Source: Anaerolineales bacterium
Lineage (GTDB): Bacteria; Chloroflexota; Anaerolineae; Anaerolineales; UBA4823
Length of the DNA stretch: 64,000 bases
Direction: 5' to 3'
Assembly: GCA_016929095.1 (NCBI GenBank)
Contig: JAFGJM010000004.1
Coordinates: 109,688 to 173,687, forward strand
Shown: piece by piece, positions 497 to 63,296 of the stretch
Position numbering within the stretch: the stretch's first letter is position 1
Layout of the letters: each line of letters starts with the position of its first letter
The notes under the pieces: model-generated
What the model saw: only the letters and a program-made list of their open reading frames with translations
The model's database searches: none
Told to the model about the DNA's origin: nothing
Position numbers and translations under genes: made by a program

Positions 497-753
497 AATA
501 GGCACAATATATCACCCACACCGCGGTTTCATGAATGTGAAAAATAATATTCATAACGGCAAGTAATGGGCTGAGCATAATTAAAGCATTTATCCCCAAA
601 TATCGCGATTGGAGATGAAGTAAATTGCGCGATAGATCGTGGTGTCTTTCCTCGGTTGAAGTTTATCGTTTCTTTAGAAGGCATTAGACCTGTTGATTAT
701 TTGAAAATATTTAATAGCGTAAAAAATTTGCTGTAAAGTAGAATTGACTTGTT

Positions 754-1683
754 ATGAATCGATACCTTTTTAACCGCATCATCCAATCTATTCTAGTTTT
801 ATTAGGCGTGATGTGCCTGGTATTTTTTCTGCTACGCATTGTCGGCGACCCGGTGCAGATGTGGTTTTCGGGGAGGACGAGAGAAATCGACCCTGAGACA
901 ATTGCTGAATTTCGTAGATCGATGGGTTTTGATCTGCCTTTACCTGTGCAATTTATCAACTTCATGCGAAAAGCAATTGTCGGCGATTTTGGCAATTCAT
1001 TCCGCTATAAACTGCCTGCTTCAATGATGATCATCGAAAGAATACCGGCAACCCTAAAGTTGACATCTATTAGCTTACTGGTTGCACTCATCGTTTCGAT
1101 CCCATTGGGCGTGATGGCGGCAGTTAAATCGGGTGGAATTATTGATGATATAGCCCGTACATTGGCGCTCATTAGTCAAGCCACGCCTACTTACTGGCTT
1201 GGTTTAGTGTTAATTTCGATTTTCGCCGTCAAACTGCGCTGGCTGCCCTCTTCTGGGTCTGAAAATTGGAAACATTATATTCTTCCCGTTGCTTGCCTGG
1301 CGCTTTCATCGATGGGTGGATTAATCCGGTTGACGCGCTCATCTGTGCTGGAAGTGCTCCAAGAGGATTACGTTCGTACAGCAGTTAGCAAGGGATTGCG
1401 CAAGAATGTGATTTATTACCGCCATATCCTGGTTAATGCAGCACTGCCTTTGGTCACCGTCATTGGAATGAGTTTGGGTGGTTTACTGGGCGGCGCCCTG
1501 TATATCGAGACGATTTTTGCATGGCCGGGTATGGGGCGTCTGGTTTCAGACGCCGTAGGATTGCGCGATTTCCCGATCATACAGGGGGTAGCTTTCCTAA
1601 CTTGCTTGATTGTTGTGTGTGTCAATCTTTTGACTGACGTGATATACACTTTCATTGATCCCCGCATCCGCTATGGAGATTAG
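754..1683 (+). CDS. ABC transporter permease, DppB/OppB type
   Basis: 309 aa, N-term MNRYLFNRIIQSILVLLGVMCLVFFLLRIVGDPV and C-term ETIFAWPGMGRL..DPRIRYGD typical of DppB permeases. Confidence 0.92.
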   Translation: MNRYLFNRIIQSILVLLGVMCLVFFLLRIVGDPVQMWFSGRTREIDPETIAEFRRSMGFDLPLPVQFINFMRKAIVGDFGNSFRYKLPASMMIIERIPATLKLTSISLLVALIVSIPLGVMAAVKSGGIIDDIARTLALISQATPTYWLGLVLISIFAVKLRWLPSSGSENWKHYILPVACLALSSMGGLIRLTRSSVLEVLQEDYVRTAVSKGLRKNVIYYRHILVNAALPLVTVIGMSLGGLLGGALYIETIFAWPGMGRLVSDAVGLRDFPIIQGVAFLTCLIVVCVNLLTDVIYTFIDPRIRYGD

Positions 1684-10816: not shown

Positions 10817-10995
10817 GCGCCCTCGGCGCGATTCGAACGCGCAACCGTCTGATCCGAAAAGTGGAATAAGCGTTCTTTGGCGCTTATGTAGTCTACAGAG
10901 TCCTATATATGAGGGGTATTTTGTGTATTTCGTCTATATTTTCCAAGCTTTAGTGCCCATTTGCACCAGTCATGATGGGAGGGAAGGCAGCTCTG
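10817..10995 (-). repeat. tRNA-Arg 3'-half plus iteron repeat, copy A (att-like)
   Basis: Minus strand reads ...TTCGGATCAGACGGTTGCGCGTTCGAATCGCGCCGAGGGCGC; adjacent ~135 bp aligns with copies at 26789 and 63490, with one fewer 11-bp and one fewer 9-bp unit. Confidence 0.85.
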
Positions 10996-11378
10996 GTTTT
11001 TTATATAGAATGTTATATTACTAATATTCGATGGGTATGATGCCGTTTTAATAATTCATTGTGAGTGACAAGTATCACCCAATAACAGTGACAATTGGTC
11101 ATTGGATTTAAATAATTTTTTAGATATAAAATAATCATCTCGAATAATGGCACGGTGTTTCACTATTAGAAACGGTTTTACTCGTGAAAAAAAACATTAA
11201 GAAAATATCGTTATATTCTCATGTGAATGTTAATTATCGGTAAACATGTTTATGGAAAGCCATGAATGTTGAACGCATTTTTAGCGAAGGAGGTGGCTTC
11301 AACATAAATGTTGATTTTTAAGATCAATGATTATGGTTTATGAACAACTGAGATAAATAAAAATAAAAGGAGAAAAAG

Positions 11379-13061
11379 ATGAAAGTCCGATATACCAATA
11401 TTCTTGTCGTCATGGTGATCATTTTTTCCATGATTATTGTCTCTTGTCAGTCGGCTCCGACGCCTGAAGAAACAATACCAACTGAGGCAGTGCAATTAAC
11501 AGATGAAATTGAAGGGGTTGTTGAAGAAACAGAACAACCCGCGACTTCATCAGAAAAGCCGACTATTATAGTAGCCATTGATGGCGATATTGATCATATT
11601 GAATTACAACAATTCCGCACGATTGCCGGATATGACGCAACAGCAAACCTTTATGAACCACTTGTCACACAAAAAGCCGTGCAAGATGAAAATGGCGTAT
11701 GGATCGGATCGAACGATTATGTCGGTGCGGGCGCTGAATCTTGGGAGGTATCCGATGACGGTTTGGTTTACACCTTCCACCTTCGGAAAGAAGCAAAGTT
11801 TGCTGACGGTACACCTGTTACGGCAAAAGATTACTATATTACCTTTGATAGAGCCATAAACGGGAATGGTTATATAAAATTACTTTTGCCTTCTTTTGCA
11901 GGTGTTGAATCGATAGACCAGGTGAAAGTTATAGATGATTACACCCTGCAAATTACACAAAATAAAGCTTCTTCATTATCATTGATCATTTATGGTTTCC
12001 AGGTGCTTGGCGCAATGAGCGAAAAGACAATTAAAGATCATGCCACCGCTGATGATCCTTGGGCAGAAACCTGGCATCGAAATAATGCTAACCCCAGTGG
12101 GCCATATGTCATCACAAGCTGGAAACCTGGTGAGGAATATGTATTCGAACCGAATCCCTTCTACTGGCGTGGTCCAGATTATTATGGTAATTCAAAAGTA
12201 ATATATCGGGTCATTCCCGATGCATCCACCAGAGAGCAGCTTTTGAGAGCTGGGGACATCGATATCGCACAAGGTATTCCTTACAAGGATATTGCAGATT
12301 TACAGAAAGATTCTAATTTAACATTTTTCAAGATAAAGACTCCGCGCGTTTATCATGCCGGCATGAATGTCACTAAGAAACCCTTTGACGATGTCAGAGT
12401 CCGCAAAGCTGTTTCTATGGCAGTGGATTATCAAGCTATTGTTGATAATGTAATCTATGGCTTTGGAGAAAACCCAAAATCTCCGGTAGGTGTTAGTATG
12501 CCAACTCATACTGATGAATTTTGGCCATATGAAGGACCAAACATCGAAGATGCAAAAGCATTGCTGGCAGAAGCTGGATATCCGGATGGATTCGAGGTTG
12601 ATTTGCTTGTTCCTCAAGAAGATCAGGCACGGATGGATGCAGCGACCTGGATTCAAGCGGGATTGGCGACAATTGGCGTGAAGGTTAATATCAATGCACA
12701 GCCTACTGCACAATTCAACAGCTTACTTGACACGCATGAACAACCTTTCTATATGTTCGAGTGGTATTCATGGGGGAACGATCCTGCTTTCCAGCTCCAT
12801 TGGAATTTCCGTTGTGAGGCATGGACAAATTATGCGCTGTATTGCGATCCGGCTATGGATAAAATCATTGATGATTTGATTGTCACGTCTGATCCTGACA
12901 AACGCGAAGAATTAAGTTATCAAGGTCAAAAGATGGCACTTGATACGGCTACCTGGATTTACCTTTACCAAAACGATTGGGTCGTTGCTGCACAAAAGGG
13001 AGTGACTGGCGTAGGGTTCTTTAATGATCTTCATACTCACTTCTCAAATCTAACTAAATAA
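11379..13061 (+). CDS. peptide-type ABC transporter substrate-binding lipoprotein (SBP family 5)
   Basis: Lipobox region IIVSCQSAPTPEE; SWEVSDDGLVYTFHLRKEAKFADGTPVTAKD motif. Confidence 0.92.
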   Translation: MKVRYTNILVVMVIIFSMIIVSCQSAPTPEETIPTEAVQLTDEIEGVVEETEQPATSSEKPTIIVAIDGDIDHIELQQFRTIAGYDATANLYEPLVTQKAVQDENGVWIGSNDYVGAGAESWEVSDDGLVYTFHLRKEAKFADGTPVTAKDYYITFDRAINGNGYIKLLLPSFAGVESIDQVKVIDDYTLQITQNKASSLSLIIYGFQVLGAMSEKTIKDHATADDPWAETWHRNNANPSGPYVITSWKPGEEYVFEPNPFYWRGPDYYGNSKVIYRVIPDASTREQLLRAGDIDIAQGIPYKDIADLQKDSNLTFFKIKTPRVYHAGMNVTKKPFDDVRVRKAVSMAVDYQAIVDNVIYGFGENPKSPVGVSMPTHTDEFWPYEGPNIEDAKALLAEAGYPDGFEVDLLVPQEDQARMDAATWIQAGLATIGVKVNINAQPTAQFNSLLDTHEQPFYMFEWYSWGNDPAFQLHWNFRCEAWTNYALYCDPAMDKIIDDLIVTSDPDKREELSYQGQKMALDTATWIYLYQNDWVVAAQKGVTGVGFFNDLHTHFSNLTK

Positions 13062-13086
13062 ACCAAAAGATCATTTATATCGCATC

Positions 13087-13119
13087 GGAAGGACGGGGAT
13101 CTAAAAAACTCGTCCTTCC
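13087..13119 (+). terminator. intercistronic hairpin after substrate-binding gene
   Basis: GGAAGGACG ... CGTCCTTCC inverted repeat, 26 bp after the SBP stop. Confidence 0.6.
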
Positions 13120-13197
13120 AAAAGAATTCTATTATTATTAAAATGATTTTGGAATGTTGTTGGAAATTAACCATATACTCTCTTATGAATTGATATT

Positions 13198-14217
13198 ATG
13201 TCAAATTTCTTTAATTTTATTTTACGCAGATTTCTTCTTACGATAATCGCAGTTTTTGGTGTTATCATTTTGGTTTTTCTTTTAACCCGATTGCTTCCCA
13301 ATAACCCAGCTGCATTGCGAGCTGGACCTTTGGCAGATGCTGAATTAATTAAGCAATACGAAAGAGAAATGGGGTTAGATAAACCCTTGATTGTCCAATT
13401 TGGTACATATACAGGTCAATTAATGCGTGGTGATCTTGGCGATAGCTGGCGCACCAGCCAACCAGTTCGGGAAGAATTGGGTATTCGCATTCCTGCAACA
13501 TTGGAGCTGGCTTTATCTGCGTTTATTATCGCATTATTTTTTGGGGTACCCCTCGGAATTATTGCAGCTTTCTATTCTGACTCATGGATTGATCAAATAG
13601 TGCGAGTCTTTGCTACATTAGGTGCTTCGCTTGCTCTTTTTTGGTTGGCGTTAGTAGGTGTATACATTTTCTATTATTTATTGCATTGGGCTGCAGCGCC
13701 GGTTGGTCGATTAACAATCGGGATTAATGAACCTCCTGAAATTACTGGCCTTTTTCTTATTGATAGTCTCTTAGCGGGAGATATTGAAACATTTAAAGAC
13801 GCATTTAATCATCTATGGTTGCCGGCTTGCACATTGGCTTTTATTGTCAGTGCGCCGATTATTAAGATTTCTCGTTCATCTATGAAGGATGTATTGAATG
13901 CAGATTATATTCGAACTGCCAAAGCCATTGGTGTTCCACCTACGAAATTGTTATTTAAAGACGGCTTACTAAATGCTTTTATTCCGATTTTAACTATGTT
14001 GGGTATTGTCTTTGGGTATTTGATGGGTGGCAACCTGATCGTTGAACAGGTTTTCGCCTGGCCAGGGATTGGTCAATATGCATGGAAAGCATTGAGTACC
14101 AACGATTTTAATGCTGTTCAAAGTTTTGTATTACTAATTGCTGTGGTTTATGTGTCTTTGAATTTCATCATTGATTTGATCTATGCTTTGATCAATCCAC
14201 AAATTCGATTGGAATAA
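13198..14217 (+). CDS. ABC transporter permease, DppB type
   Basis: FNFILRRFLLTIIAVFGVIILVFLLTRLLPNNPA; EQVFAWPGIGQYAW. Confidence 0.92.
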   Translation: MSNFFNFILRRFLLTIIAVFGVIILVFLLTRLLPNNPAALRAGPLADAELIKQYEREMGLDKPLIVQFGTYTGQLMRGDLGDSWRTSQPVREELGIRIPATLELALSAFIIALFFGVPLGIIAAFYSDSWIDQIVRVFATLGASLALFWLALVGVYIFYYLLHWAAAPVGRLTIGINEPPEITGLFLIDSLLAGDIETFKDAFNHLWLPACTLAFIVSAPIIKISRSSMKDVLNADYIRTAKAIGVPPTKLLFKDGLLNAFIPILTMLGIVFGYLMGGNLIVEQVFAWPGIGQYAWKALSTNDFNAVQSFVLLIAVVYVSLNFIIDLIYALINPQIRLE

Positions 14218-14226
14218 AATTATAGA

Positions 14227-15123
14227 ATGAGCTCAACACAAAATAGTATTCAAAATATTGAAATTAAACCGAGTGTAATTAGCAGATCGGAGTTCTTGGG
14301 AAAGATTCGATTTTTTACTCGTTTCCCGTTATTTATTTTCGGAATATTAGTAATACTATTTTATTTACTGGTAGTGATTTTTGGCCCATCATTAACCGTT
14401 TACGATCCAACTATTCCTAATCCACAATATACATTAGGTCAGCCAAATAGCGATTATCCATTTGGAACGGATAAATTTGGGCGAGATATTCTTACCAGAG
14501 TAGTGTACGCGACCAGACTTGATTTAATGATTGCCTTATTAGTAGCTTCATTATCATTCAGCATTGGTTCTTTAATGGGGTGTATTGTTGGGTATTATGG
14601 CGGTTGGCTTGATAAAGTGATCATGCGGGTTGTTGATGTGATGTTTGCATTTCCCGCGTTTATTCTTGCGATGGCAATAACATCAGCTTTGGGGGATACA
14701 GTACAAAATGTAATTATTGCGATCGCGACCGCCTACACACCATACTTCATCCGTCTAACACGAGGAGAGATGCTCACGTTACGAACCCGTCAATACGCTG
14801 ATGCAGCCATTAGTGTAGGTAATCCAAGTTGGAGGGTAGCGTTAATTCATCTTTTACCCAATGCATTGACTCCGTCGTTAGTACAAATGACATTGGTATC
14901 AGGATGGGCAATTCTGGATGCTGCCGGATTAGCTTTTCTGGGTTTGGGGATAACGCCTCCCACGGCTGAATGGGGGGTTATGGTCTCAGAGGGCGCCCAA
15001 CGGATTATTACTGGTGAGTGGTGGGTTTGGTTATACCCTGGTGCGGCAATTGTGTTGGCTGCTTTTGCGTTTAATCTTGTTGGTGATGGATTGCGGGATA
15101 TTATGACCAGGGAGGAACAATAA
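14227..15123 (+). CDS. ABC transporter permease, DppC type
   Basis: YPFGTDKFGRDILTRVVYATRLDL; AGLAFLGLGITPPTAEWGVMV. Confidence 0.92.
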   Translation: MSSTQNSIQNIEIKPSVISRSEFLGKIRFFTRFPLFIFGILVILFYLLVVIFGPSLTVYDPTIPNPQYTLGQPNSDYPFGTDKFGRDILTRVVYATRLDLMIALLVASLSFSIGSLMGCIVGYYGGWLDKVIMRVVDVMFAFPAFILAMAITSALGDTVQNVIIAIATAYTPYFIRLTRGEMLTLRTRQYADAAISVGNPSWRVALIHLLPNALTPSLVQMTLVSGWAILDAAGLAFLGLGITPPTAEWGVMVSEGAQRIITGEWWVWLYPGAAIVLAAFAFNLVGDGLRDIMTREEQ

Positions 15124-16100
15124 TGTCAGCCCCGATTATTCGCGTTGAGGAATTAACGGTTTCGTTAAACACTGATGATCATCAGCGCAATATCATCGAT
15201 AGTATATCGTTTGATATGTTCCCCAAGGAAATCATGGGGTTGGTAGGTGAGAGCGGATCTGGAAAGACGATGACTGCGCTTTCGATTATGCAATTGCTTC
15301 CAAAGACAATAAAAATATGCGGGGGGAGTATTTGGTATGAGGATAAAGATTTATTGAAAATGACCTCGCGAGAAATTAGAACAATACGTGGGAATAAAAT
15401 AGCGATGATTTTTCAAAATCCGCGTATGGCGCTCAATCCACTCATGCGTGTTGGTGATCAGATTGCAAGAGCGGTTTGCTTACATTGTGAAGTTTCTTCC
15501 GAAAAAAGTAAGTCAATGGCAGTCGAACTGATGTCGCAGGTGGGGATTCCAGATGCAGAATCTCGGGCTCGCTCCTATCCACACCAATTGAGTGGAGGAA
15601 TGGCGCAGCGGGTACTGATAGCCATGATGCTTGCTTGTAAACCAAAATTATTAATTGCAGATGAGCCAACAACTGGTTTGGATGTAACAATACAAGCCCA
15701 AATATTTAAACTTATCAAAGAAATTCAATCTGAGATAGGAGTTGCGGTTTTGCTAATTACGCATGATTTTGGAGTGGTTAGCGAGGTTTGTGACAGAGTT
15801 GGAGTTATGTATGCAGGACAAATTATGGAAATTTCCAGTGTTATTGATGTTTTTACCAATCCAAAACATCCATATACACAACGTCTATTAAAAAGTATTT
15901 TAAGAGTTGATCGGAAAAGTGATTTGGATACAAATAAGGCTCTGTCTCCAATTTCAGCAGTTTTCGATTCACCAGGGTGTAGATTTGCCAGTCAGTGCGA
16001 TTGTGTTCGTCCGGAATGCTTATGGGAACGTCCAAAAATTTATACCGATTCACCTGGTCATTCTGTATATTGTTTTAATTATTCCAGGGATAATAAATAG
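15123..16100 (+). CDS. ABC transporter ATP-binding protein, DppD type
   Basis: GESGSGKT Walker A, LSGGMAQRVLIAMML signature, [12 protein letters not shown] Walker B. Confidence 0.92.
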   Translation: MSAPIIRVEELTVSLNTDDHQRNIIDSISFDMFPKEIMGLVGESGSGKTMTALSIMQLLPKTIKICGGSIWYEDKDLLKMTSREIRTIRGNKIAMIFQNPRMALNPLMRVGDQIARAVCLHCEVSSEKSKSMAVELMSQVGIPDAESRARSYPHQLSGGMAQRVLIAMMLACKPKLLIADEPTTGLDVTIQAQIFKLIKEIQSEIGVAVLLITHDFGVVSEVCDRVGVMYAGQIMEISSVIDVFTNPKHPYTQRLLKSILRVDRKSDLDTNKALSPISAVFDSPGCRFASQCDCVRPECLWERPKIYTDSPGHSVYCFNYSRDNK

Positions 16101-16167
16101 CAAAGTGTTTTCAGTGTAAATATCCCATCTATAAAAAATATTTCAGAAAAGGATTAAACCTACCTCA

Positions 16168-17121
16168 ATGGAACCGTTATTACGAGTGAAAGATTTGCAT
16201 AAACATTATAAGGATGGGCGTTACACAGTACATGCTGTCAATGGTGTTAATTTCGATATATTCCCGGGTGAAGCAGTAGGATTAGTTGGAGAGAGTGGAT
16301 GTGGAAAAAGCACAACTGCTCGTTGCATTTTAATGCTTGAACAACCTACTCATGGAAAGATAATTTTCAAAAATCAAGATCTCGCAGCTATGTCTGAACA
16401 TCCTTTGCGAAGTTGGCGTAGATTTTTCCAGATTGTTTTTCAAGACCCAAATGAGTCACTTAATCCTCGTTTCAATGTGAAACGAACATTGAAGGAACCG
16501 TTATTTCTCCATGGTTTGTATCAAGACAGTCATCAACTGGGTGAACTGATGAAACGCGTTACTCTGGAAATTGAGCATCTCGAAAGATATCCGCATCAAT
16601 TAAGTGGCGGACAAAAACAGCGCGTAGGTATTGCACGTGCAATTTCTACATCTCCTGATTTTGTTGTTCTCGATGAACCAACATCTTCATTAGATATGTC
16701 TCTGCGAATTCATATACTATCTCTATTACGTCGTTTACAGCGAGAAATGAATATGGCCTATTTATTTATTTCTCATGACTTGAGTACGGTTCACAACTTA
16801 TGTAACAGGGTGTTGGTAATGTATTTGGGTCGAATAATAGAAATGGGTACATCTGAAGATGTTTTTAATAACCCACAACACATATATACTCGTGCTCTTC
16901 TTTCTGCAATTCCAATCCCTGATCCTGCCATAAAGCGTAAGCGAATTCTATTACAAGGGGAGACCCCCAATTCTCGTGATATCGAAGTTGGTTGCAGTCT
17001 GCAAAAACGCTGCCCATATGTACGTCAGGAATGCAGTTTCCCGGTTCCTTACACCGATTTAGGTAAAAGACATTTAGTCGCTTGCGTATTAGCCGGAAGC
17101 GAAATTATCAACGGATCTTGA
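16168..17121 (+). CDS. ABC transporter ATP-binding protein, DppF type
   Basis: [40 protein letters not shown]. Confidence 0.92.
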   Translation: MEPLLRVKDLHKHYKDGRYTVHAVNGVNFDIFPGEAVGLVGESGCGKSTTARCILMLEQPTHGKIIFKNQDLAAMSEHPLRSWRRFFQIVFQDPNESLNPRFNVKRTLKEPLFLHGLYQDSHQLGELMKRVTLEIEHLERYPHQLSGGQKQRVGIARAISTSPDFVVLDEPTSSLDMSLRIHILSLLRRLQREMNMAYLFISHDLSTVHNLCNRVLVMYLGRIIEMGTSEDVFNNPQHIYTRALLSAIPIPDPAIKRKRILLQGETPNSRDIEVGCSLQKRCPYVRQECSFPVPYTDLGKRHLVACVLAGSEIINGS

Positions 17122-17204
17122 GTTAGCAACGAAGAGACTCCTTATTAAAGTCATGAATGAAATAACCATTCATGAATATAAAACAGGATACTTGAAGGAG
17201 AGAA

Positions 17205-17996
17205 GTGAAGAAAATATCTAAATCACCTAGTATGAAAACAAGTACGTTAGCTCATGGATTAATGCTTCTTGAGCTTACTGCCTTTATCGGCAAAAAGAAT
17301 GGTGTAACTCTTCAGGAAGCAACAAAGGCCAGTGGTATGCATCGCAGCAATGTATACAGGTATTTAAAAACCCTGGTCGATTGTGGTTGGTTAGAGTATG
17401 ACACAGAAACTTACCGATATCGTATTGGCGCAAAACCTCTTCAAATTGCAGGGGCATCACTCCAGCAATTGGATTTGCGAGTTGTAGCACATCCATTTTT
17501 GCAAGACTTGGTTGGCGAAACCTGTTTAGCCGTACATTTAGGTGTTTTGAACAAATCATCAATTGTTTACATAGACAAAGTCGAAAGCAATAGTCCGATA
17601 CAGATGCGATCCAGGCCTGGCATGATGGTTCCAGTTTATTGTACGGCAATGGGTAAAGCAATAGCGGCGACGATGAGTGAACAAGAAGTTAGGGATTTGC
17701 TTGGTACTAATTTTCCTCGACGTACTCCAAATACCATTACCTCCATTGAAGAATTTCTTATTGATCTTAAAAGAGTACAAGAACTTGGTTATGCGATTGA
17801 TAACGAAGAAAATGAGCCGGGAATCGGGTGTATTGGCGCGGCGATTTATGGTTACGATGATGAAGTAATAGGAGCAGTCAGCCTTTCAACTTTAATTCAG
17901 GATCTAACACCCGAAAACATTAAATTATTTTCCGACCGGGTAAAACGAACAGCAAATCGCATTTCACAATCAATGGGATGTCACCATAAAGATTAA
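17205..17996 (+). CDS. IclR-family transcriptional regulator
   Basis: GTG start; N-term HTH (SGMHRSNVYRYLKTLVDCGWLEYD) and IclR effector domain (MVPVYCTAMGKAIAATMSEQEV, GYAIDNEENEPGIGCIGAAIYG). Confidence 0.88.
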   Translation: MKKISKSPSMKTSTLAHGLMLLELTAFIGKKNGVTLQEATKASGMHRSNVYRYLKTLVDCGWLEYDTETYRYRIGAKPLQIAGASLQQLDLRVVAHPFLQDLVGETCLAVHLGVLNKSSIVYIDKVESNSPIQMRSRPGMMVPVYCTAMGKAIAATMSEQEVRDLLGTNFPRRTPNTITSIEEFLIDLKRVQELGYAIDNEENEPGIGCIGAAIYGYDDEVIGAVSLSTLIQDLTPENIKLFSDRVKRTANRISQSMGCHHKD

Positions 17997-18078
17997 TGTT
18001 GGAAAAATTTTGAAAAATCAAAAACATTATTAAATCAAACGAATGGCTATTTTTAGATAATTATCACAGGATAATCAT

Positions 18079-19989
18079 ATGAATTCATCAATTCTTGGTG
18101 ATGTATTATATATCGATCTAACAAACAAGAAGATTTCGAAAAGCCCCTATACCAAAGAATTAGCCAGTCAATACATTGGATCTCGAGGCTACAATGTTGC
18201 ATTGTTGTGGGAAATGGTTGCCAAGGGAATTGACCCACTTAGCCCGGAAAATGTTTTGATTTTTGGGGCTGGACCATTAACAGGTACTTCTGCTCCCTCA
18301 TCAGGTCGTATTTCTGTTACGGCTAAAAGCCCTGCTACAAATTTATATCTCAAAACAAATGTAGGAGGCGCTTGGGGGGGAGAAATTAGGTATGCAGGAT
18401 ATAGTTTTATTGTCATTACAGGAAAAGCAGATCGTCCAGTTTATCTATGGATAAACGATGGTAAGGTGGAAATCAGGGATGCTCAACATTTGTGGGGAAA
18501 AGATGTTCGTGAAACTGAACACATCCTTCAAAATGAAATTGGTGATGGGAATATAAAGGTTGCTTCCATTGGCCCGGCTGGGGAAAACCTGGTTTTATTT
18601 GCAGCAATTATGTGTTCTAACTACAATGCTGCTGCCCGAGGAGGAATTGGTGCAGTGATGGGCTCGAAAAACATGAAGGCACTCGCTGTGCGTGGAACAC
18701 AACCTGTTAGCGTTGCTGAACCGGAAAGGTTTAAGGATTTGATTGATTTTGCCTGGGATCTCTATCACAAACAAAGCGGTGCTTTAGATACTCATCTTTA
18801 TGGGACATCGGTAAGTGTAAGTGCAATAAATGAAATGAATAGCTTTCCAACATATAATTATCAAATCGGACATTTCGAGCATGCTGATAAAATTACCGGA
18901 CAAGCTTTAGTAGAAGGCGGGTATTTAAAGCATCGGGTTGGTTGTTATGCGTGTCCTATGGCATGTCATCGATATTCCGAAGTGAATAGAGGAAAATATA
19001 AAGGCGCTTATACAGGGGGACCAGAATATGAGACTTTTGGGTCATTGGGAGCTGGATGCGGGATTGGGGATATCGAAGCAATTATTCATGCCAATGAATT
19101 ATGTAATATTTACGGCCTCGATACAATATCTACCGGAAGTGTCATTCAATGGGCTATGGAGTGTCATCAGAGAAAATTAAATTTTGATAGGGATGGTTTG
19201 GATTTTTCGTGGGGTAATGCAGACACCGTTATTTCATTGATCAAGAAGATTGCATATCAGGAAGGCTTGGGTCGGATGCTTGCAAATGGGGTCAAAAGAG
19301 CTTCCGAGGAGATGGGACAAAACTCCGAAGAATGGGCAATACAAGCGAAAGGTTTAGAACAATCTCGTGTGGAAACGCGATCGGCTTACTCTTATGCTTT
19401 AGCTTTCATGGTTAACCCGAGAGGTCCCGACCATCTGATGACAGAAACTCTTGCAGAATTTGGCACGTCGCCCGAAATGGTAGATGTCATAGAAAAAATC
19501 ACCGGTGATAAAAAATACGCCACACCGCTCACCACTGAAAAACGTCCAGAAATTGTTCGTTGGCATGAGGATGTTTATGCCATAACTGATGGGCTTGGGT
19601 TGTGCGCTTTTGCATCCACTGCTCAATACTATATGACGCCTCAATTGATGGCTGATCTGTTTTCCGCTTCGGTTGGCATACCCTGTAGCGAGGAGCAGTG
19701 TATGAAGCTGGGTAAAAAGATAGTTACGATGGAGCGTTGTTTTAATACCCGCGAGGGAGCCACTCGGAAGGATGACCGTTTACCCAAACGTTTGATGACC
19801 GAAAAACTGAAAGACTCGCCCAATCGGCTAAATATCAATTCAATGGAAATTATGAGCCCATTGTTGGACCGTTATTATGAGATGCATGGTTGGGATATCG
19901 CAACCGGGCGACCAACCAGGTCTGTATTAGAAGAATATGGATTAAAAGCTTGGGCGGATGAGCTTAATAAACATAATTATTTACCATAA
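18079..19989 (+). CDS. aldehyde:ferredoxin oxidoreductase family protein (tungstopterin type)
   Basis: GSRGYNVALLWEM, GPLTGTSAPSSGRISVTAKSP, cluster motif CYACPMACHR and distal Cys in LGLCAFAS. Confidence 0.92.
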   Translation: MNSSILGDVLYIDLTNKKISKSPYTKELASQYIGSRGYNVALLWEMVAKGIDPLSPENVLIFGAGPLTGTSAPSSGRISVTAKSPATNLYLKTNVGGAWGGEIRYAGYSFIVITGKADRPVYLWINDGKVEIRDAQHLWGKDVRETEHILQNEIGDGNIKVASIGPAGENLVLFAAIMCSNYNAAARGGIGAVMGSKNMKALAVRGTQPVSVAEPERFKDLIDFAWDLYHKQSGALDTHLYGTSVSVSAINEMNSFPTYNYQIGHFEHADKITGQALVEGGYLKHRVGCYACPMACHRYSEVNRGKYKGAYTGGPEYETFGSLGAGCGIGDIEAIIHANELCNIYGLDTISTGSVIQWAMECHQRKLNFDRDGLDFSWGNADTVISLIKKIAYQEGLGRMLANGVKRASEEMGQNSEEWAIQAKGLEQSRVETRSAYSYALAFMVNPRGPDHLMTETLAEFGTSPEMVDVIEKITGDKKYATPLTTEKRPEIVRWHEDVYAITDGLGLCAFASTAQYYMTPQLMADLFSASVGIPCSEEQCMKLGKKIVTMERCFNTREGATRKDDRLPKRLMTEKLKDSPNRLNINSMEIMSPLLDRYYEMHGWDIATGRPTRSVLEEYGLKAWADELNKHNYLP

Positions 19990-20006
19990 AAAAAGAGAAA
20001 GTTACT

Positions 20007-21116
20007 ATGATTACAAAAGAAAATATAGATGCATTTCTGGAAGGTTTGGCAATCTTGGGTACGGGTGGTGGAGGTTCTCCTGAATGGGGTAAATCGATTT
20101 TGCACAATGATTTTGATCGGGGACGGAATGTAAAAATTGTAAAACCTGAGGATGTTCCTGATGACGCCACTGTTGCCAGTGGCGGCATTATGGGATCGGT
20201 AAAGGTGTTGGATAAAATTCAACCTCTGGAATTGATTGCGAGGTGGGAGAAACGCTTTGAATTAACCGAGGCTTTTAAACTGCAGGCGGAGACCATTGGC
20301 AAGAATATTGATTATATTGTTGCTTTCGAAATGGGCGGGTTGAATACCCCGGTCATGCTTTCACTTAGCGCGCGCACCGGAATACCAATAATCGACGGAG
20401 ATGGATTGGGTCGGGCTGCCCCGGAAACTCAAATGATTTCGTTTATTGGGTATGGTGTTTCACTCACCCCTATGCCTCTAGTCGATGCTGCCGGGAATGC
20501 AGTTGTCGTTCGTACTGGAGTCGAAAACACATTTCCCGATATGCTTGGTCGATGGGTCATTACACACGGTGGTGGAATGGGAGCAAACTGCCACTATCCA
20601 ATGAGTGGTAAAAAACTCAAGGAATCGGTGATTCCCAATACCATTAGTGGCGCATTAGCATTGGGTGAAGAAGTATTCAAAGCCAGGAAAGAAAATAAAG
20701 ATCCCATTAGCTCCATAACAAAGTTTGTTGGTGGATATTATATCCATACTGGTGTTATTGAAAAGATGGAAGAAAAAGAATGGGAAGGGTTTTATTTTAT
20801 CAATGTTCGATTGAGTAATGATGTTGAATTGATAATTAAAAATGAATACATGATTTTGATAATTAGTGGAAAACCGGTAACAATTTTCCCGGATTTAATA
20901 CTGGGATTAGATCCTAAAACAGGTCGTGGTTTGATGAGCGCAGATCTCAAAGTAGGAGATTCGATAGCATTGGTTGTAGCACCTTGTCATTCCCGTTTAC
21001 GCGCTGCACTAGATTCAGAAGAAGCAAAGAGAGCATTTTCACCGGTACGTTTTGGACAACCCCACTTATCTAATATTCCAATCGAAGAATTACTCAAGGG
21101 GAAATTAGGCAAATAA
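20007..21116 (+). CDS. DUF917-family (hydantoinase-like) protein
   Basis: GLAILGTGGGGSPEWGKSIL and PIIDGDGLGRAAPETQMISF motifs typical of DUF917 proteins. Confidence 0.8.
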   Translation: MITKENIDAFLEGLAILGTGGGGSPEWGKSILHNDFDRGRNVKIVKPEDVPDDATVASGGIMGSVKVLDKIQPLELIARWEKRFELTEAFKLQAETIGKNIDYIVAFEMGGLNTPVMLSLSARTGIPIIDGDGLGRAAPETQMISFIGYGVSLTPMPLVDAAGNAVVVRTGVENTFPDMLGRWVITHGGGMGANCHYPMSGKKLKESVIPNTISGALALGEEVFKARKENKDPISSITKFVGGYYIHTGVIEKMEEKEWEGFYFINVRLSNDVELIIKNEYMILIISGKPVTIFPDLILGLDPKTGRGLMSADLKVGDSIALVVAPCHSRLRAALDSEEAKRAFSPVRFGQPHLSNIPIEELLKGKLGK

Positions 21117-21134
21117 TTTTATAGGAGAGGTCAA

Positions 21135-21644
21135 ATGAAACAGATAAAAGTGGATGTTTCTAAATGTTCCGGGTGTGGTCAATGTGTCTTAACATGCTCA
21201 TTTAAGAATGTGGGTACATTTGATCTGAGCCAGAGCAATATCCGAATTATTCAATGGGAAGATATCTGTCTCTCAATTCCTATCCTTTGTCAGCAATGTA
21301 AAGATACTCCTTGTGTGGCTTCTTGCCCCACAGAAGCGATTACGGTGAATCCAGATACTGGTGCTATTGATATTGATAAAAATTTATGTGTGCAGTGCAA
21401 TTCTTGCATAGACGAATGCCGTTATCAGGTTATTCATATAGATTTAGAAGGCTACCCATGTACATGTGATCTTTGCAATGGCGAACCGAAATGCGTAATG
21501 GTTTGTTACCCTGGTGCGATAACTTTTGAAGAAATACCAGAACAAGACAAAGAACCGTTTAAACCAATAGCACAATTGTTGGTTTTAAAAACTGCTGGTA
21601 AACCTGTATCTCCGCCAACGGAATTTGTCACGAGGAATTTTTGA
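21135..21644 (+). CDS. HycB-like 4Fe-4S ferredoxin, probable electron-transfer partner of the AOR
   Basis: Four cysteine groups: CSGCGQCVLTC, CQQCKDTPCVASCP, CVQCNSCIDEC, CTCDLCNGEPKCVMVC. Confidence 0.88.
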   Translation: MKQIKVDVSKCSGCGQCVLTCSFKNVGTFDLSQSNIRIIQWEDICLSIPILCQQCKDTPCVASCPTEAITVNPDTGAIDIDKNLCVQCNSCIDECRYQVIHIDLEGYPCTCDLCNGEPKCVMVCYPGAITFEEIPEQDKEPFKPIAQLLVLKTAGKPVSPPTEFVTRNF

Positions 21645-21652
21645 CATCAAGC

Positions 21653-21910
21653 ATGCAAATAGTAGTGCATGGTGAAATACATGATTGGCTGGGTGTTCAC
21701 CTGAAGGATTTATTAATGAGAAAAGAGTAAGTTTATCTGATGTTTTGGATTTATTCTCTCAACAAGATTGGAATCGGGATTTGTTTGTTATATAAGATAT
21801 CCAGATTGAAATGGTGCCTGAGTTCCTGGTGATCATGGTATCAACAGTGTTGCTATATTGGAAGGCAGATAAAATCTGGGTGATTGATAATCAATATCTA
21901 CAAATTGTAA
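21653..21910 (+). pseudogene. possible frameshifted small ThiS/MoaD-like remnant
   Basis: Broken reading frames give MQIVVHGEIHDWLGVHLKDLL, VSLSDVLDLFSQQDW and GDHGINSVAILEG in different frames; identification tentative. Confidence 0.3.
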
Positions 21911-21922
21911 AAGTTAAAACTC

Positions 21923-22684
21923 ATGGATGAACCAATGACGCGAAAAGTTCAAATAATAGGTGTGTGTAGCAGTCCTCGCCATGCTAACACAGAAATCATG
22001 CTACAGGAAGCTTTAAAAGCTGCTGAAAAAGCATATCCAGAGATTGTCACCAAGATGATTAGTTTGAAAGGTAAAGTTATTAAACCTTGTTTTGATTGTA
22101 AAGCTTGTGAACGCCGAAGGATGTTTGTTCTCGTTGATCAATGTGTGCTTAAAGATGATTGGAAGGATCTTATCCAACCATTGGTGGATCCGGTTCCAAA
22201 TGGAATAATCATGGCTTCTCCGGTATATTTTTCTGATGTTAATGCTCAAATGAGAGCTTTTATGGAACGTTGTACATCATTACTTAAACCTTATTGGTTC
22301 CCAAGCATTTCATTTAACGCCCCGGATTTCTCAAGAACTGCCGCTGGTGCGTTATCGGTTGGATTCCATCGGCATGGAGGTCAAGAAACGGCTATCCTTA
22401 CGATTCTTCGTTTTTGCACGATTCTTGGCATGACGGTTGTTGGAAGTGTGGATCCATTACATGGACCGATTGGGTATCTTGGAGGCGCAGGCTGGGAAGA
22501 TGTTGCTGGTAAACAGGGAAGAGAGGCTGTAAAAGAGGATGCTTGGGGACTTTTTTCAGCTCGCGTATTAGGTCGCAGGGTTGCCCGGACAGCCATTATG
22601 CTTGCTAACGCACCTGCGGTGCCCCAAATAAGTGAACCATTTGTATCACCAATGTCATCATTTAACAACGAAAAGGAAAAATAA
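21923..22684 (+). CDS. flavodoxin/NADPH-dependent FMN reductase family (iron-sulfur flavoprotein-like)
   Basis: QIIGVCSSPRHANTEIMLQEALKAAE ... KPCFDCKACERRR ... GIIMASPVYFSDVNAQMRAFMER. Confidence 0.85.
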   Translation: MDEPMTRKVQIIGVCSSPRHANTEIMLQEALKAAEKAYPEIVTKMISLKGKVIKPCFDCKACERRRMFVLVDQCVLKDDWKDLIQPLVDPVPNGIIMASPVYFSDVNAQMRAFMERCTSLLKPYWFPSISFNAPDFSRTAAGALSVGFHRHGGQETAILTILRFCTILGMTVVGSVDPLHGPIGYLGGAGWEDVAGKQGREAVKEDAWGLFSARVLGRRVARTAIMLANAPAVPQISEPFVSPMSSFNNEKEK

Positions 22685-22812
22685 GTGGATTGGATAAAGC
22701 AAAAATATCTTATTGAAAATCAATTTTTATAAAGGGTTTCTTTTATATGTCATGAAAGGAGAATTGAGTCTTTAAACCTCATCTGATTGAGGTAATAAGA
22801 CTAATAAATGAA

Positions 22813-23916
22813 ATGGTTGATACAAACTTATTATTAATGATTCCAGGTCCTATACAACCAGAACGGGAAGTGATGAAAGTTATGGGCGACCCGGTTAAGG
22901 CACATTATGGATCAGAGTGGACTGAAATATATAATCTCACTATCGAAGCATTAAGAAAGATATTTAATACGCAAGGAGATGTATTTCTAATGGTTGGTTC
23001 TGGATCTTGCGCGTTAGATAGTTGTTTGGGAAGTGCCTTCAGTACGGGTGAAAAAGTCATTGTCGGTGTGAATGGATTTTTTGGTGAAAGGTTAAAGGCG
23101 ATTTCAGATTGTTATGGTTTAAATACCATAATCGTTGAATCTGAGTGGGGGGAACCATTTAAACCAAGTGATTTTGAAAAGGTAATACAAAAGAATCAAG
23201 ATGCAATCGGTGTTTGTGTTGTTCATCTTGAAACTTCGACAACGATTATCAACCCCATAGAGGAGATTGGAAAGATTGTTCGAAAACAAGGCATGTGCTA
23301 TGTAGTTGATGCCGTGTCATCACTGGGTGGCATTCCGTTAAAAATAGATGACTGGAATATTGATTTGTGTGCCAGCGCCTCACAAAAATGTTTGGGTGCG
23401 CCTCCGGGATTAGCCCCTGTGGCTGTTGGTGAAAGGGGTTGGGAATTTATTGATCGGAATAAATCTAAAGGGCATGGTTGGTATACGAATCTTAATATCT
23501 GGCGCAAATTTTCCAAAGAATGGGCTGATTGGCATCCTTTTCCAATTACGATGGCAACCAATAATGTATTGGCTTTAAAAACCAGTCTGGATAGTGTATT
23601 GCAGGAGGGGGTTGAATTGCGCATGGAACGATATCGCCAGCTTGCAATTCGCCTTCGAAATGGATTGCGTGGGCTTGGATTAAATCTCTATACACCAGAC
23701 GAATTGATGTCGCCAGTACTTACAGCATCTTATAGTTATCCGGGTATTCCCGCAAGTGAAGTAATCACCTATTTGGAAGAAAAACACCATATAAAAATTG
23801 CGGGAGGGTTGGGATCATTAAAAAATAAGATAATCCGAATTAGTCACATGGCTCCTACAACATCAGAAGAAGACATAGATCGGGTTCTTTCTGCATTGAA
23901 CCAGTTTAAATCGTAA
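22813..23916 (+). CDS. class V PLP-dependent aminotransferase (alanine/serine-glyoxylate aminotransferase-like)
   Basis: LLLMIPGPIQPEREVMKVM; VVDAVSSLGGIPLKIDDWNIDLCASASQKCLGAPPGLAPVAVG with the PLP lysine. Confidence 0.88.
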   Translation: MVDTNLLLMIPGPIQPEREVMKVMGDPVKAHYGSEWTEIYNLTIEALRKIFNTQGDVFLMVGSGSCALDSCLGSAFSTGEKVIVGVNGFFGERLKAISDCYGLNTIIVESEWGEPFKPSDFEKVIQKNQDAIGVCVVHLETSTTIINPIEEIGKIVRKQGMCYVVDAVSSLGGIPLKIDDWNIDLCASASQKCLGAPPGLAPVAVGERGWEFIDRNKSKGHGWYTNLNIWRKFSKEWADWHPFPITMATNNVLALKTSLDSVLQEGVELRMERYRQLAIRLRNGLRGLGLNLYTPDELMSPVLTASYSYPGIPASEVITYLEEKHHIKIAGGLGSLKNKIIRISHMAPTTSEEDIDRVLSALNQFKS

Positions 23917-23941
23917 TCATTTATCTTTTTGGAGGTGCTTA

Positions 23942-24709
23942 ATGAAAGAAAAATCATTGCAAGGAAAGATCGCGCTGGTAACAGGTTCGTATCGCAATTT
24001 AGGATTAGTCACTGCTGAAACCCTTGCCAGCTATGGTGCCTCGATTGTATTAAATGACATTGATCATCCCGATTTAGAAGAAATAGGAAAACAGGCACTT
24101 GAAAGAATTAATGGTATGGGTGTTCAGGCAATTGCTATTCCTGCTGATATGTCTAAGAGCGATCAGGTTAGAGCTATGTGCCATTCGGCTATTCAACACT
24201 TTGGAAAAGTGGATATTCTTGTTAATAACGCTGGTCCGTTCAATATGGATCCGTATTTATCTTTGAGGGAAGAAATTTATGACTTGGTAATGGATGTAAA
24301 CCTGAAAGCGATTTATTTGACTTCTCAGGAAATTATCCCGATTATGAAATCTCACGGCTGGGGAAGGATTGTGAATATGTCGGCTGGATCGGCTTATGTG
24401 CGCGATCATAGCGTTTATGGGTTGGCGAAATATGGAGTCCAGTTTATTACGGAGGAACTTGCCCTTGAAGCAGGTCCGGAGGTAACCGTTAACGCTATAG
24501 CGCCCGGGCAAATTTATGAGAGTTTACCAGATATCAATAAACTCGATCCCACATTTGGTGAACGTTATACTGCCAAATCCCCATTAAGAACCCTGGTAAC
24601 CCGCAAGGAGGTTGCTGCATTAATTGCGAGTATATGCACCCCTGCATACGATAAAGTGACTGGATCAATCTTTAAAATTGATGCTGGAGCAGAAATTTGG
24701 CGTTTTTAA
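23942..24709 (+). CDS. SDR-family oxidoreductase
   Basis: GKIALVTGSYRNLG, LVNNAGPF, S..Y...K (SAGSAYVRDHSVYGLAKYG). Confidence 0.88.
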   Translation: MKEKSLQGKIALVTGSYRNLGLVTAETLASYGASIVLNDIDHPDLEEIGKQALERINGMGVQAIAIPADMSKSDQVRAMCHSAIQHFGKVDILVNNAGPFNMDPYLSLREEIYDLVMDVNLKAIYLTSQEIIPIMKSHGWGRIVNMSAGSAYVRDHSVYGLAKYGVQFITEELALEAGPEVTVNAIAPGQIYESLPDINKLDPTFGERYTAKSPLRTLVTRKEVAALIASICTPAYDKVTGSIFKIDAGAEIWRF

Positions 24710-24719
24710 ATTGTTATAA

Positions 24720-24770
24720 GTCGCTATGCCGGGCAGAAAAACACCCGCATTATCCATGGAAGAAAATAAC
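24720..24770 (-). repeat. ~50-bp dispersed repeat, copy 1
   Basis: Minus strand GTTATTTTCTTCCATGGATAATGCGGGTGTTTTTCTGCCCGGCATAGCGAC aligns with 62632-62680 and 62797-62846 on the plus strand. Confidence 0.55.
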
Positions 24771-24782
24771 GCTTCATCGATG

Positions 24783-24830
24783 GCTTCGACAAGCTCAGCT
24801 ACCGATCCGTGGCCTGAGCCTGTCGAAGGC
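24783..24830. repeat. REP-like palindrome
   Basis: GCTTCGACAAGCTCAG ... CTGAGCCTGTCGAAGGC imperfect inverted repeat, a common interspersed palindrome type. Confidence 0.75.
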
Positions 24831-24913
24831 AGCAAAGGTTTATGGTTATTTTCATACTAGAAAATGATTCTAATTGAAATCTCGAGTAAATTATTCAGTG
24901 TGCTGTATTGCAA

Positions 24914-25561
24914 ATGGAGATTATTATGGACATTATTGAGATTACCGGAAAACATCGTCTTCTTACGGCAATTGAGTTACAGGATTTAAATAAAACTGTT
25001 CCACTAGGTCAAGCTCTGTTGGATGGTGGAATTTCTGTTGCAGAAATCACTTTTCGAACTGAGATTGCTGCTAAAGCTGTAAATAAGATGATACAAAGCT
25101 TTCCTAATATGATTATTGGCGCCGGGTCAATCATTCATGTTCACCAAGCAGAAGAAGCGATTACCGCAGGAGCAAAATTCATCGTTGCAGCCGGTTTTAA
25201 TCCTGTATTGGTAGATTGGTGTATAGATAAGCAAATACCTATCTTACCCGGAGTTGCAACAGCTTCCGAGATAACTATGGGGGTTGTGCGCGGGATTAAT
25301 GTGTTAAAGTTTTTCCCAGCCGAAGTTATGGGCGGAATCCATGGTTTGAAAGCTTTATCAGCACCATTCCCAGGAATAAAATTTATCCCGATGGGGGGTA
25401 TCTCTGCTAATAACCTCGAAAACTATATTCGATTACCCTTTATTCATGCAATCGGTGGCACGTGGATGGTCAATAAAAAATTGATCGAAGAAGGAAATTT
25501 TTCAGAAATCAGCCGTCTCACTCGTGAAGCATTAGCAATTATTAAAGAAGTCAGAGGGTAA
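24914..25561 (+). CDS. 2-dehydro-3-deoxy-phosphogluconate (KDPG) aldolase family
   Basis: DGGISVAEITFRTEIAAKAV, GAGSIIHVHQAEEAITAGAKFIVAAGFNP, VLKFFPAEVMGGIHGLKALSAPFPGIKFIPMGGI. Confidence 0.9.
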   Translation: MEIIMDIIEITGKHRLLTAIELQDLNKTVPLGQALLDGGISVAEITFRTEIAAKAVNKMIQSFPNMIIGAGSIIHVHQAEEAITAGAKFIVAAGFNPVLVDWCIDKQIPILPGVATASEITMGVVRGINVLKFFPAEVMGGIHGLKALSAPFPGIKFIPMGGISANNLENYIRLPFIHAIGGTWMVNKKLIEEGNFSEISRLTREALAIIKEVRG

Positions 25562-25563
25562 AT

Positions 25564-26619
25564 ATGGGCAACAAAAATCATCGTATCATTACATTAGGTG
25601 AAACCATGCTTAGATTGAAATCCCCAGGATTTGAGCGGTTTCTGCAATCTGGTATTTTCGAAGCTACCTTTGCTGGTGGTGAGGCAAATGTGGCTGTATC
25701 GCTAGCGAACTTTGGAATGGATGTGGCTTATATAACTGCATTACCCAACAATCCCATTGCCGATGCATGTATTACCTTTTTGCGAGGGTTGGGTGTGGAT
25801 ACCAGTTTTATCATTCGTTATGGGGAACGGATGGGGATCTATTATTTGGAAGCGGGAGCCAATCAGCGACCGTCTCGCGTAATCTATGATCGAGCGAATT
25901 CTTCAATAGCCGACATAGGTCCTGAGCAATTTGATTGGGAAAAAATATTTAGTGGCTCTTATTGGTTCCATATAACGGGAATCACACCGGCGATTAGTGA
26001 AAAAGCGGCAGAAACATCACTTGCTGCAGTCCAACAGGCTAAGAAACATGGATTAATTGTCTCTTGTGATTATAACTATCGCAAAAATTTATGGAAGTAT
26101 GGTAAGAAACCTGTTGAAATTATGAGTGAATTGGTGAAGTATGTAGATATCGGTATCGCTAATGAAGAGGATTGCCAACTTGCTTTAAATATTAAAGTAG
26201 ATGAGAAATCTTGGGAACAGGAAATTGAAACTGGGAAATTAAATATTGAAAAATATCGAGAACTTTGTGAAACGGTCTTGGATAAATATCCCAATCTAAA
26301 GATGCAAGCAATCACATTGCGTCATAGTTTCAATGCAAATCATAATGGGTGGTCCGGATGTTTGCATGATCGAAAATATTTTTATAATGGACCGTATTTT
26401 GATATTCCATATATTATTGATCGTGTTGGGTCGGGTGACTCTTTTGCTGCTGGTTTGATATATAGTTTAATAAAAAAGACAGATTTTAAAGATGCCTTAG
26501 ATTTTGCAGTAAGTACATCTTGCTTAAAGCATTCAATATATGGAGATTTTAACCGTGTATCTGTGGATGAAGTTAAGAGGTTGATGAAAGGAGATTCTTC
26601 TGGTCGTGTACAACGGTGA
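25564..26619 (+). CDS. PfkB-family sugar kinase, 2-keto-3-deoxygluconate kinase-like
   Basis: GETMLRLKSPG, FAGGEANVAVSLANFG, DRVGSGDSFAAGLIYSL. Confidence 0.88.
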   Translation: MGNKNHRIITLGETMLRLKSPGFERFLQSGIFEATFAGGEANVAVSLANFGMDVAYITALPNNPIADACITFLRGLGVDTSFIIRYGERMGIYYLEAGANQRPSRVIYDRANSSIADIGPEQFDWEKIFSGSYWFHITGITPAISEKAAETSLAAVQQAKKHGLIVSCDYNYRKNLWKYGKKPVEIMSELVKYVDIGIANEEDCQLALNIKVDEKSWEQEIETGKLNIEKYRELCETVLDKYPNLKMQAITLRHSFNANHNGWSGCLHDRKYFYNGPYFDIPYIIDRVGSGDSFAAGLIYSLIKKTDFKDALDFAVSTSCLKHSIYGDFNRVSVDEVKRLMKGDSSGRVQR

Positions 26620-26788
26620 ATTTATTTAATCGTTTATTGTATTAGATTACAAGTAGTTAGAGGAAATTAAGGATCCATAATTGGGTGATTGGGTGGTTGT
26701 CCAGATTGTTAGTATAAAGATATTATGTCGGAGAACAGGTATTTTCCTATTTTGTATCTGACAAATACAATGTTTTCACCCAATAAAT

Positions 26789-26990
26789 GGCGCCCCCGGC
26801 GCGAATCGAACGCGCAACCGTCCGACCCGAAGAAGTAGAACAAGCGTTCTATACCGTATATATAGCCTATTGAGTCTACAGAGTCCTATATATGGGGGGT
26901 ATTTTGTATATTTTATCTATATTTTCCGTGCTTTGGTACCCCATTTGCGCCACTTCTGCACCGGGCATGATGGGAGGGGAGGCAGCTCTG
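26789..26990 (-). repeat. tRNA-Arg 3'-half plus iteron repeat, copy B (att-like)
   Basis: Minus strand CTTCGGGTCGGACGGTTGCGCGTTCGATTCGCGCCGGGGGCGCC; adjacent ~155 bp nearly identical in layout to copy C. Confidence 0.88.
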
Positions 26991-27094
26991 TTTTTTCATA
27001 GCAATGGGGAGATCAAAATTTGTTGTCTCGTTAGAGAGATATTAATCTAGTGAAGTATTAATATCAATCCACGGAGGTAATAGATATGGTGGAT

Positions 27095-62956: not shown

Positions 62957-63283
62957 TTATGAAGATATATTTTGGATTAACGGCAGATTTATTTTATGGG
63001 GTGTTGACAGGATTAATGCGGTAGAGATTGTTCCAAAAGCGCTTAACGTCTGTACGATTTTCTCTAATCTTTCCATCGATCCTACAGCTAAGCGTAGATA
63101 AAAAGCATCTTCACCGGTCACATGATGGCATTCAAGAACTTCCGGTTCATCTTCCAATGCAGTCATCAAACGGGCATATCGTTCTGGTGGGGTGCGTAGA
63201 CGGACAAATGGTCGAATGGGTAATCCGATTGCATCTATTAAATCTCTTCGTGATGACCCTGGATTATATCGGCTGATTCCATC
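62957..63283 (-). pseudogene. Lrp/AsnC-family regulator C-terminal remnant
   Basis: Open minus-strand text DGISRYNPGSSRRDLIDAIGLPIRPFVRLRTPPERYARLMTALEDEPEVLECHHVTGEDAFYLRLAVGSMERLEKIVQTLSAFGTISTALILSTP; no HTH domain found upstream. Confidence 0.75.
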
Positions 63284-63296
63284 TCCATAAAAAAAC

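Follow-up and report, generated by a model that had tools for sequence, protein, structure and literature searches.

Integrases of the lambda and Tn916 families use arm-type sites on both sides, and the Xis sites of lambda lie between the core and the arm sites. The attP of ICEMlSym has five 10-bp IntS arm sites and a wHTH factor, RdfS, which has the fold of HTH_17 excisionases and for which no consensus motif could be identified (PMC11963761). For phage 186 Apl, the RDF sites are direct repeats one helix turn apart (PMC7498355), and protomers of the Streptomyces transcription regulator BldC each occupy one 9-bp direct repeat, head to tail (PMC5859096). At a larger scale, accreted cis-mobilizable elements (CIMEs) accompanying ICESt1/ICESt3-type ICEs are islands without an integrase that are bounded by att sites and pile up at the 3' end of a single tRNA gene, where the same genome also has a related ICE (PMC5704250), and tycheposons (Prochlorococcus; Methylophilaceae, PMC10872708) place large metabolic cargo at tRNA genes with a tyrosine recombinase in the system.

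Here, we analyzed a 64,000-nucleotide stretch of DNA (the window) from an Anaerolineales bacterium, in which arrays of short repeats adjoin broken copies of a tRNA gene. It is very likely that the proteins that integrate and excise a family of mobile elements dock at these repeats, and that the repeats mark the junctions of metabolic blocks that were inserted successively behind a tRNA gene, in a layout that recurs throughout the order. With the accretion and the protein roles included, we consider it probable that positions 10859-10995 are the integrase-distal attachment-site arm of a family of mobile islands. We found no literature on this system in Anaerolineae or Chloroflexota.

The nearest known kind of system is the accreted CIME beside an ICE, with which the locus shares both the stacked, integrase-less islands and the related element at the same tRNA. 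As judged from sequence alone, the island between cores B and C (BC) fits the structural definition of a CIME and the island between cores A and B (AB) does so only in part. Unlike in known CIMEs (PMC5704250), the cargo here consists of whole catabolic operons, or of defence genes elsewhere in the order, and the distal arm has two clusters of 9-bp repeats and a very high copy number across one order; the large two-cluster array and this scale are what is new. The layout is that of the lambda P arm, from core to Xis sites to arm sites, and as at other tyrosine-integrase att sites with an RDF, tandem arm-type sites lie in the integrase-distal arm beyond RDF-type repeats. An HTH_17 RDF gene is shared with ICEMlSym (PMC11963761), although here it sits beside int, and in contrast to the lambda and ICEMlSym sites there is a long array of about eight units with a 9-bp pitch, split into two clusters by a conserved ATATATGGGGG block. 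We rejected membership among the tycheposons because tblastn with the integrase revealed no tyrosine recombinase in AB or BC. Integrons were considered for the cassette-like arrays; the sites here consist of tRNA remnants that carry iteron arms, and the closest integrases with solved structures are not IntI.

Displaced tRNA-Arg fragments in the window

The window is part of contig C35 of a 61-contig genome (G000) and runs to the end of that contig. ARAGORN identified no tRNA genes in it. It does contain three cores on the minus strand, each corresponding to the 3' terminal 42 nt of tRNA-Arg(TCG), which span the anticodon loop through the acceptor end: core A (10817-10858; 41/42 identity to the intact gene), core B (26790-26831; 39/42), and core C (63490-63531; 42/42). 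Intact tRNA-Arg(TCG) was found as a single copy in the genome, on contig C29, and elsewhere in the genome the core matched only a different arginine tRNA. The displaced 3' fragments on C35, together with the intact gene and its adjoining integrase on C29, form the pattern of an island site. Core C carries both a distal and a proximal arm and is therefore an attP-like junction of two elements. We sought synteny between the left flank of core A and the tRNA-Arg flanks of related genomes and found none; thus, the host side of the array was not located.

Contig C35 stops 0.5 kb beyond core C, inside a multi-copy repeat, and is presumably contiguous with C29. A repeat starting TTGGTGTAACATA lies at the ends of contigs 35, 19, and 48, and in the window at 27090-27700 and 63915-64000. 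Near core B it is followed by broken transposase-like reading frames (family assigned by eye), and the repeat is probably an insertion sequence responsible for the breaks in the assembly.

Repeat arrays in the arms

Core A directly precedes the stretch 10859-10995, and an equivalent stretch follows cores B and C. The original prediction placed its iterons correctly there, and the repeats are real. They adjoin the core as it described, but they do not flank it: all units lie on one side. It had counted about two 9-bp units in copy A and three in B and C; in a fixed register, cluster I has four units in A and five in B and C, and a second cluster of three further units per copy had been missed.

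We built a 138-position, sequence-only model (R1) from 11 arms, with the tRNA core excluded. All arms in the window lie on the plus strand. In arm A (10859-10995), which was aligned with B and C, R1 matches 10861-10971 with 70 bits. Cluster I (10873-10908) consists of four 9-bp units, TTCTTTGGC GCTTATGTA GTCTACAGA GTCCTATAT, and cluster II (10923-10949) of GTGTATTTC GTCTATATT TTCCAAGCT, whose register is kept over 42 arms. The outer zone (10950-10967) has a degenerate TAGTGCC box and a TTGCACC box, one 11-bp unit fewer than in B and C. Arm B (26832-26989; 101.5 bits) has cluster I at 26847-26891 (5 x 9 bp), cluster II at 26906-26932 (3 x 9 bp), and the 11-bp boxes TGGTACC (26934-26940), TTGCGCC (26945-26951), and CTGCACC (26956-26962). 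Arm C (63532-63690; 103.6 bits) has the same organization, with cluster I at 63547-63591 (5 x 9 bp), cluster II at 63606-63632 (3 x 9 bp), and TGGTACC (63634-63640), TTGCACC (63645-63651), and CTGCACC (63656-63662) in 11-bp steps. In fixed register, cluster I of copy C reads ATCTATACC GTATATGTA GTCTATTGA GTCTATTGA GTCCTAGAT; it is followed by ATGGGGGG and a spacer, then by cluster II (ATATATTTT GTCTATATT TTCCATGCT) and the 11-bp boxes. The conserved ATATATGGGGG block separates the two 9-bp clusters (e.g., window 26887-26897), and a similar CCATATATGGGGG is found again near the core in proximal arms (e.g., at loci L035 and L063).

In the alignment, copy A is exactly 9 bp shorter than B, C, and the two aligned copies of a congeneric genome, G128, at a GTCTATTGA-type unit. 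Its outer array is 12 bp shorter than those of B and C, one 11-bp unit plus 1 bp, in agreement with the prediction that copy A lacks one such unit. One G128 copy (C200) lacks 5 bp and another (C162) has one extra G, so the predicted quantisation in 9- and 11-bp steps is partial: it is exact for the 9 bp of copy A and fails for these 5- and 1-bp differences, the only arbitrary indels of the kind that would speak against iterons, and minor ones. Within the window, GTCTAYWGA occurs six times compared to 1.0 expected, with five of the six inside the arms, and the best lag-9 self-match falls within the highest-ranking 0.07% of positions for A, 0.03% for B, and 0.002% for C. On its own, the 11-bp repeat does not stand out locally; it was established through comparison.

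A fourth, degenerate arm (D; 63292-63412, R1 41 bits), absent from the copies of the original prediction, passes straight into an integrase-proximal arm (63394-63489, plus strand) that closes island BC on its right side. This proximal arm resembles the stretch between int and tRNA-Arg on C29, and left of core C it has the boxes TTGCACT (63394-63400) and TTGCACC (63404-63410) at 10-bp spacing, then a spacer to the core. Arm D has the look of a distal arm joined onto a proximal arm, as would result if an element had been deleted by recombination between TTGCAC boxes. A minus-strand frame at 62957-63304 that resembles, by eye, the end of an Lrp/AsnC regulator abuts this arm.

Arms across the order

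R1 detected arms in at least 143 of 400 genomes of the order (E ≤ 0.01; best eight candidates scored per genome). In a phylum sample of 400 genomes, it matched eight at E ≤ 1e-4, every one from the same order, and none from other orders. Across 42 arms, self-identity at lag 9 is 0.372 in the inner zone (z 11.4) and at lag 11 is 0.438 in the outer zone (z 14.3); these z-scores ignore kinship among arms and hence overstate significance, though relatedness does not by itself select lags 9 and 11. The KTCYA motif occurs 135 times in these arms versus 26 in shuffles, and 43 versus 0.16 times at 9-bp spacing. The distance between the two 9-bp clusters is fixed in regular arms, the 9-bp register is retained across arms of low similarity, and the array adjoins the recombination core at a constant distance in every copy.

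Three related loci in other genomes (L063, L064, L078) hold the integrase, proximal arm, partial tRNA core, and iteron arm within one stretch. On a single contig of genome G027, tRNA-Arg(TCG) and int at 406-408 kb are followed by three same-strand sites at 435.7, 449.8, and 479.0 kb, which lie some 29, 43, and 72 kb away from the tRNA; the last scores weakly (24 bits). Some genomes are rich in arms yet have no close homologue of the G000 integrase, such as G175 with 14 arms and no integrase homologues at E ≤ 1e-30. The usual orientation is same-strand; at L062 (G128:C200), arms at 629-757 (minus) and 1176-1302 (plus) are inverted, about 0.4 kb apart. At L075 (G201:C234), a second set made up of the 3' end of the integrase gene, the proximal arm, and the tRNA core directly follows the first, making a small tandem site.

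Integrase and excisionase genes at the intact tRNA-Arg

The tyrosine recombinase called for by the original prediction is encoded on C29, with its stop codon 134 bp from the 3' end of the intact tRNA-Arg(TCG), at the tRNA-proximal end. This 385-aa protein (P0001) matches Phage_integrase (103.7 bits) and SAM_3; its Arm-DNA-bind_4 Pfam score of 19.8 is under the gathering score of 22.3. Three TTGCACC boxes at 10-bp steps lie between int and the tRNA, and this stretch recurs in diverged form left of core C. The nearest solved relatives by sequence include XerD and the "Int protein" entries 6emy-6en2, which we take to be Tn1549 Int. Homologues at E ≤ 1e-30 are present in 55 of 301 genomes of the order. 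Most of the approximately 30 that we examined terminate at the 3' end of a tRNA gene (Arg, Lys, Asn, Leu, Thr, Val, or Ala). Many have tandem TTGCACC, TTGCAGT, TTGCTGT, or TAGCTGT boxes at 10-11 bp, and in most, TTGCAC-type boxes sit just past the int stop, beside the tRNA 3' end. Searches with the integrase returned one unrelated SAR86 match among GTDB contigs, no match in IMG/VR, and only distant relatives (<60% identity) among plasmid and phage records. A congeneric homologue with 61% identity and one in-frame TAG lies at tRNA-Lys(CTT) (L059 and L069, G128:C296).

An HTH_17-like gene precedes int at about 24 of 31 loci. In G000, it lies at L024:1900-2106 and encodes a 68-aa HTH_17/AlpA protein just upstream of int (PF12728, 42.7 bits), which also matches Phage_AlpA. 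A phmmer search of this excisionase against the PDB gave no matches, and we therefore compared it by fold. Foldseek searches of the PDB with its AlphaFold model (pLDDT 88) ranked the BldC-DNA complexes 6amk and 6ama first (E 0.006-0.02, rmsd 1.5-2.0), followed by RacA, the GIsul2 excisionase, and Pukovnik Xis; owing to the small size of the fold, these E-values are modest, with 0.006 as the best. The top structural match is thus a MerR-like BldC/HTH_17 protein that acts on 9-bp direct repeats. The BldC consensus is AATTNNNNC, whereas the unit here is GTCYATWNW; a phase-shifted TATTGAGTC of the arm unit resembles AATTCGGTC, which is a resemblance only.

Upstream of int and the HTH_17 gene, the element encodes a Replic_Relax protein and TrwB/TraG-type coupling ATPases, and it also encodes a primase (AEP and DnaG zinc-ribbon domains) and an HTH_36 protein. 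No complete transfer system was identified in the tRNA-Arg element, which is interrupted by the contig end. This conjugative element also carries, at L026:1-6867 on C29, the end of a Piwi-domain protein, a BrxL-type Lon protease, and a PIN and Phd/YefM pair, likely a defence cluster.

Islands between the cores

The window is a tandem array in which metabolic islands of 16 kb (AB) and 36.7 kb (BC) lie between cores. Based on Pfam, island AB (10996-26789) encodes an Opp/Dpp-type ABC transporter, an IclR regulator, aldehyde:ferredoxin oxidoreductase, an S-Me-THD protein, ferredoxin, an aminotransferase, an SDR, KDPG aldolase, and a PfkB kinase. Island BC (26990-63291) encodes two ABC systems, IclR and LacI regulators, aldehyde dehydrogenase, a GFO/IDH oxidoreductase, RpiB, transketolase halves, a TPP enzyme, transaldolase, ADP-ribosylglycohydrolase, PDH E2, and URO-D. 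Neither island yielded an integrase by tblastn with P0001 or in Pfam scans of part of the ORFs, and the same scans revealed no transfer genes. BC has att features at both ends, a distal arm at B and a proximal arm at C; AB has no recognisable proximal arm left of core B.

Neither island shows signs of recent movement. Island AB as a whole was not found in G128. What G000 and G128 have in common is core B with its arm and the 0.34 kb immediately left of the core, and the genes beyond differ; this suggests that core B predates the split, with its left flank at least as old, and that the contents differ. In genome G117, two 212-bp site copies, identical at 209 of 212 positions (99%), bracket an 8.4-kb operon without an integrase (LacI, RbsD, sugar ABC transporter, PfkB, ADP-ribosylglycohydrolase), with a TTGCAGT proximal-arm box at the right end. 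This operon is either a recently placed integrase-less cassette or one whose ends were recently homogenised. In G298, sites bound TIR and STAND/TPR genes, and the arrays of G298 and G027 may also hold defence cassettes. Between sites at L145 and L153 (G298, G027), we observed TIR, STAND/TPR, and protease-NACHT-like proteins, the last by eye.

Assigning proteins to the repeats

The 11-bp TTGCACC units are, in all likelihood given their sequence and placement, integrase arm-type sites. TTGCAC-type units are present in both arms, including proximal arms without a 9-bp array, and their spacing (11 bp in the distal arms) is about one helix turn. Within an element, the box variants of the two arms mostly match: G027 and L144 each have TTGCAGT in both, and G000 and G117 have TTGCACC-type boxes. 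By analogy and from the structural model, the 9-bp units are a reasonably good candidate for the binding array of the HTH_17 excisionase, since these arrays are seen mainly in the integrase-distal arm, between core and arm sites, the position of the lambda Xis sites. The original prediction had offered integrase arm-type sites or an excision protein array; both gain support from int beside tRNA-Arg and from the three loci that hold all parts, and probably both hold, the 11-bp repeats serving the integrase and the 9-bp repeats the excisionase.

Proposed origin of the array and rival explanations

In the mechanism that we propose, a Tn916/Tn1549-like tyrosine integrase would recombine the attP of an element with the half of tRNA-Arg(TCG) that runs from the anticodon loop to the 3' end. 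Every insertion would rebuild the tRNA on one side and leave a 42-nt remnant with a distal arm on the other, so that repeated insertion at the rebuilt tRNA would stack elements in tandem (cores A, B, and C), with the conjugative element that carries a live integrase most likely closest to the tRNA. The N-terminal domain of the integrase would bind the 11-bp TTGCACC-type units of both arms, and the excisionase would occupy the 9-bp units (two clusters, about eight units) in the head-to-tail manner of BldC and thereby bend the arm and promote excision. Islands AB and BC would have lost, or never had, an integrase, keeping att sites that make them mobile only via the integrase of a partner. Which protein binds which repeat, and whether the islands move at present, is what we infer here.

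The same attachment site could work with the roles exchanged, the integrase on the 9-bp array and the excisionase on the 11-bp TTGCACC repeats. Modest Foldseek E-values and a helix-turn spacing that is commoner for RDF sites allow for such a swap, phage 186 Apl being an example of RDF sites as direct repeats one helix turn apart (PMC7498355), and the excisionase also matches Phage_AlpA. We nevertheless think the swap unlikely, given that TTGCAC units occur in both arms even where the proximal arm has no 9-bp array, that 9-bp arrays lie mainly in the distal arm, and that BldC, the nearest fold, uses 9-bp sites. The constant distance from the array to the recombination core in every copy makes it very improbable that the repeats are a replication iteron array from a plasmid-like origin carried by the element, despite its AEP/DnaG zinc-ribbon primase, Replic_Relax, and HTH_36 proteins; those genes sit elsewhere in the element, and units of the outer type turn up again next to int, on the opposite arm. 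That the repeats are due to chance or low complexity, or are what is left of a coding sequence, is hardly credible: the 11-bp repeat is inconspicuous locally, but the arms are conserved order-wide, with lag 9 peaking in one defined zone and lag 11 in another, and the integrase reading frame terminates on the other arm, as the original prediction required. We therefore rejected a replication origin, a coding remnant, and chance on array position, conservation, and the int frame.

A reading that agrees on what the sites are and differs on their present function is that the window arms are decayed remnants of conjugative elements, functionless today and alike by descent only. AB and BC lack an integrase, copy A has lost units and arm D is degenerate, and no close integrase homologue accompanies the 14 arms of G175, all of which makes this a serious possibility, although we lean against it: the 9-bp register is kept among arms of low similarity, the G117 site copies around an integrase-less cassette are 99% identical, and G000 has intact int and xis at the same tRNA. 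Beyond the attachment-site arm itself, one can envisage an order-wide system in which integrase-less cassettes (sugar operons, defence genes), each with a tRNA-core site and an iteron arm, would be captured serially and moved in trans or cis by the tRNA-directed integrases of resident conjugative elements, with a BldC-like filament on the 9-bp array gating excision and array length tuning how easily a cassette exits; we offer this as a speculative and rather doubtful extension.

Implications

The 138-position model is a sequence handle for the junctions of integrase-less accreted islands, which island finders easily miss. No site consensus is known for certain wHTH excisionases such as RdfS (PMC11963761), and we offer the linked, regular 9-bp array as a candidate site. 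If the cassettes move, they would provide a route for trading whole sugar-uptake and defence operons among these bacteria.
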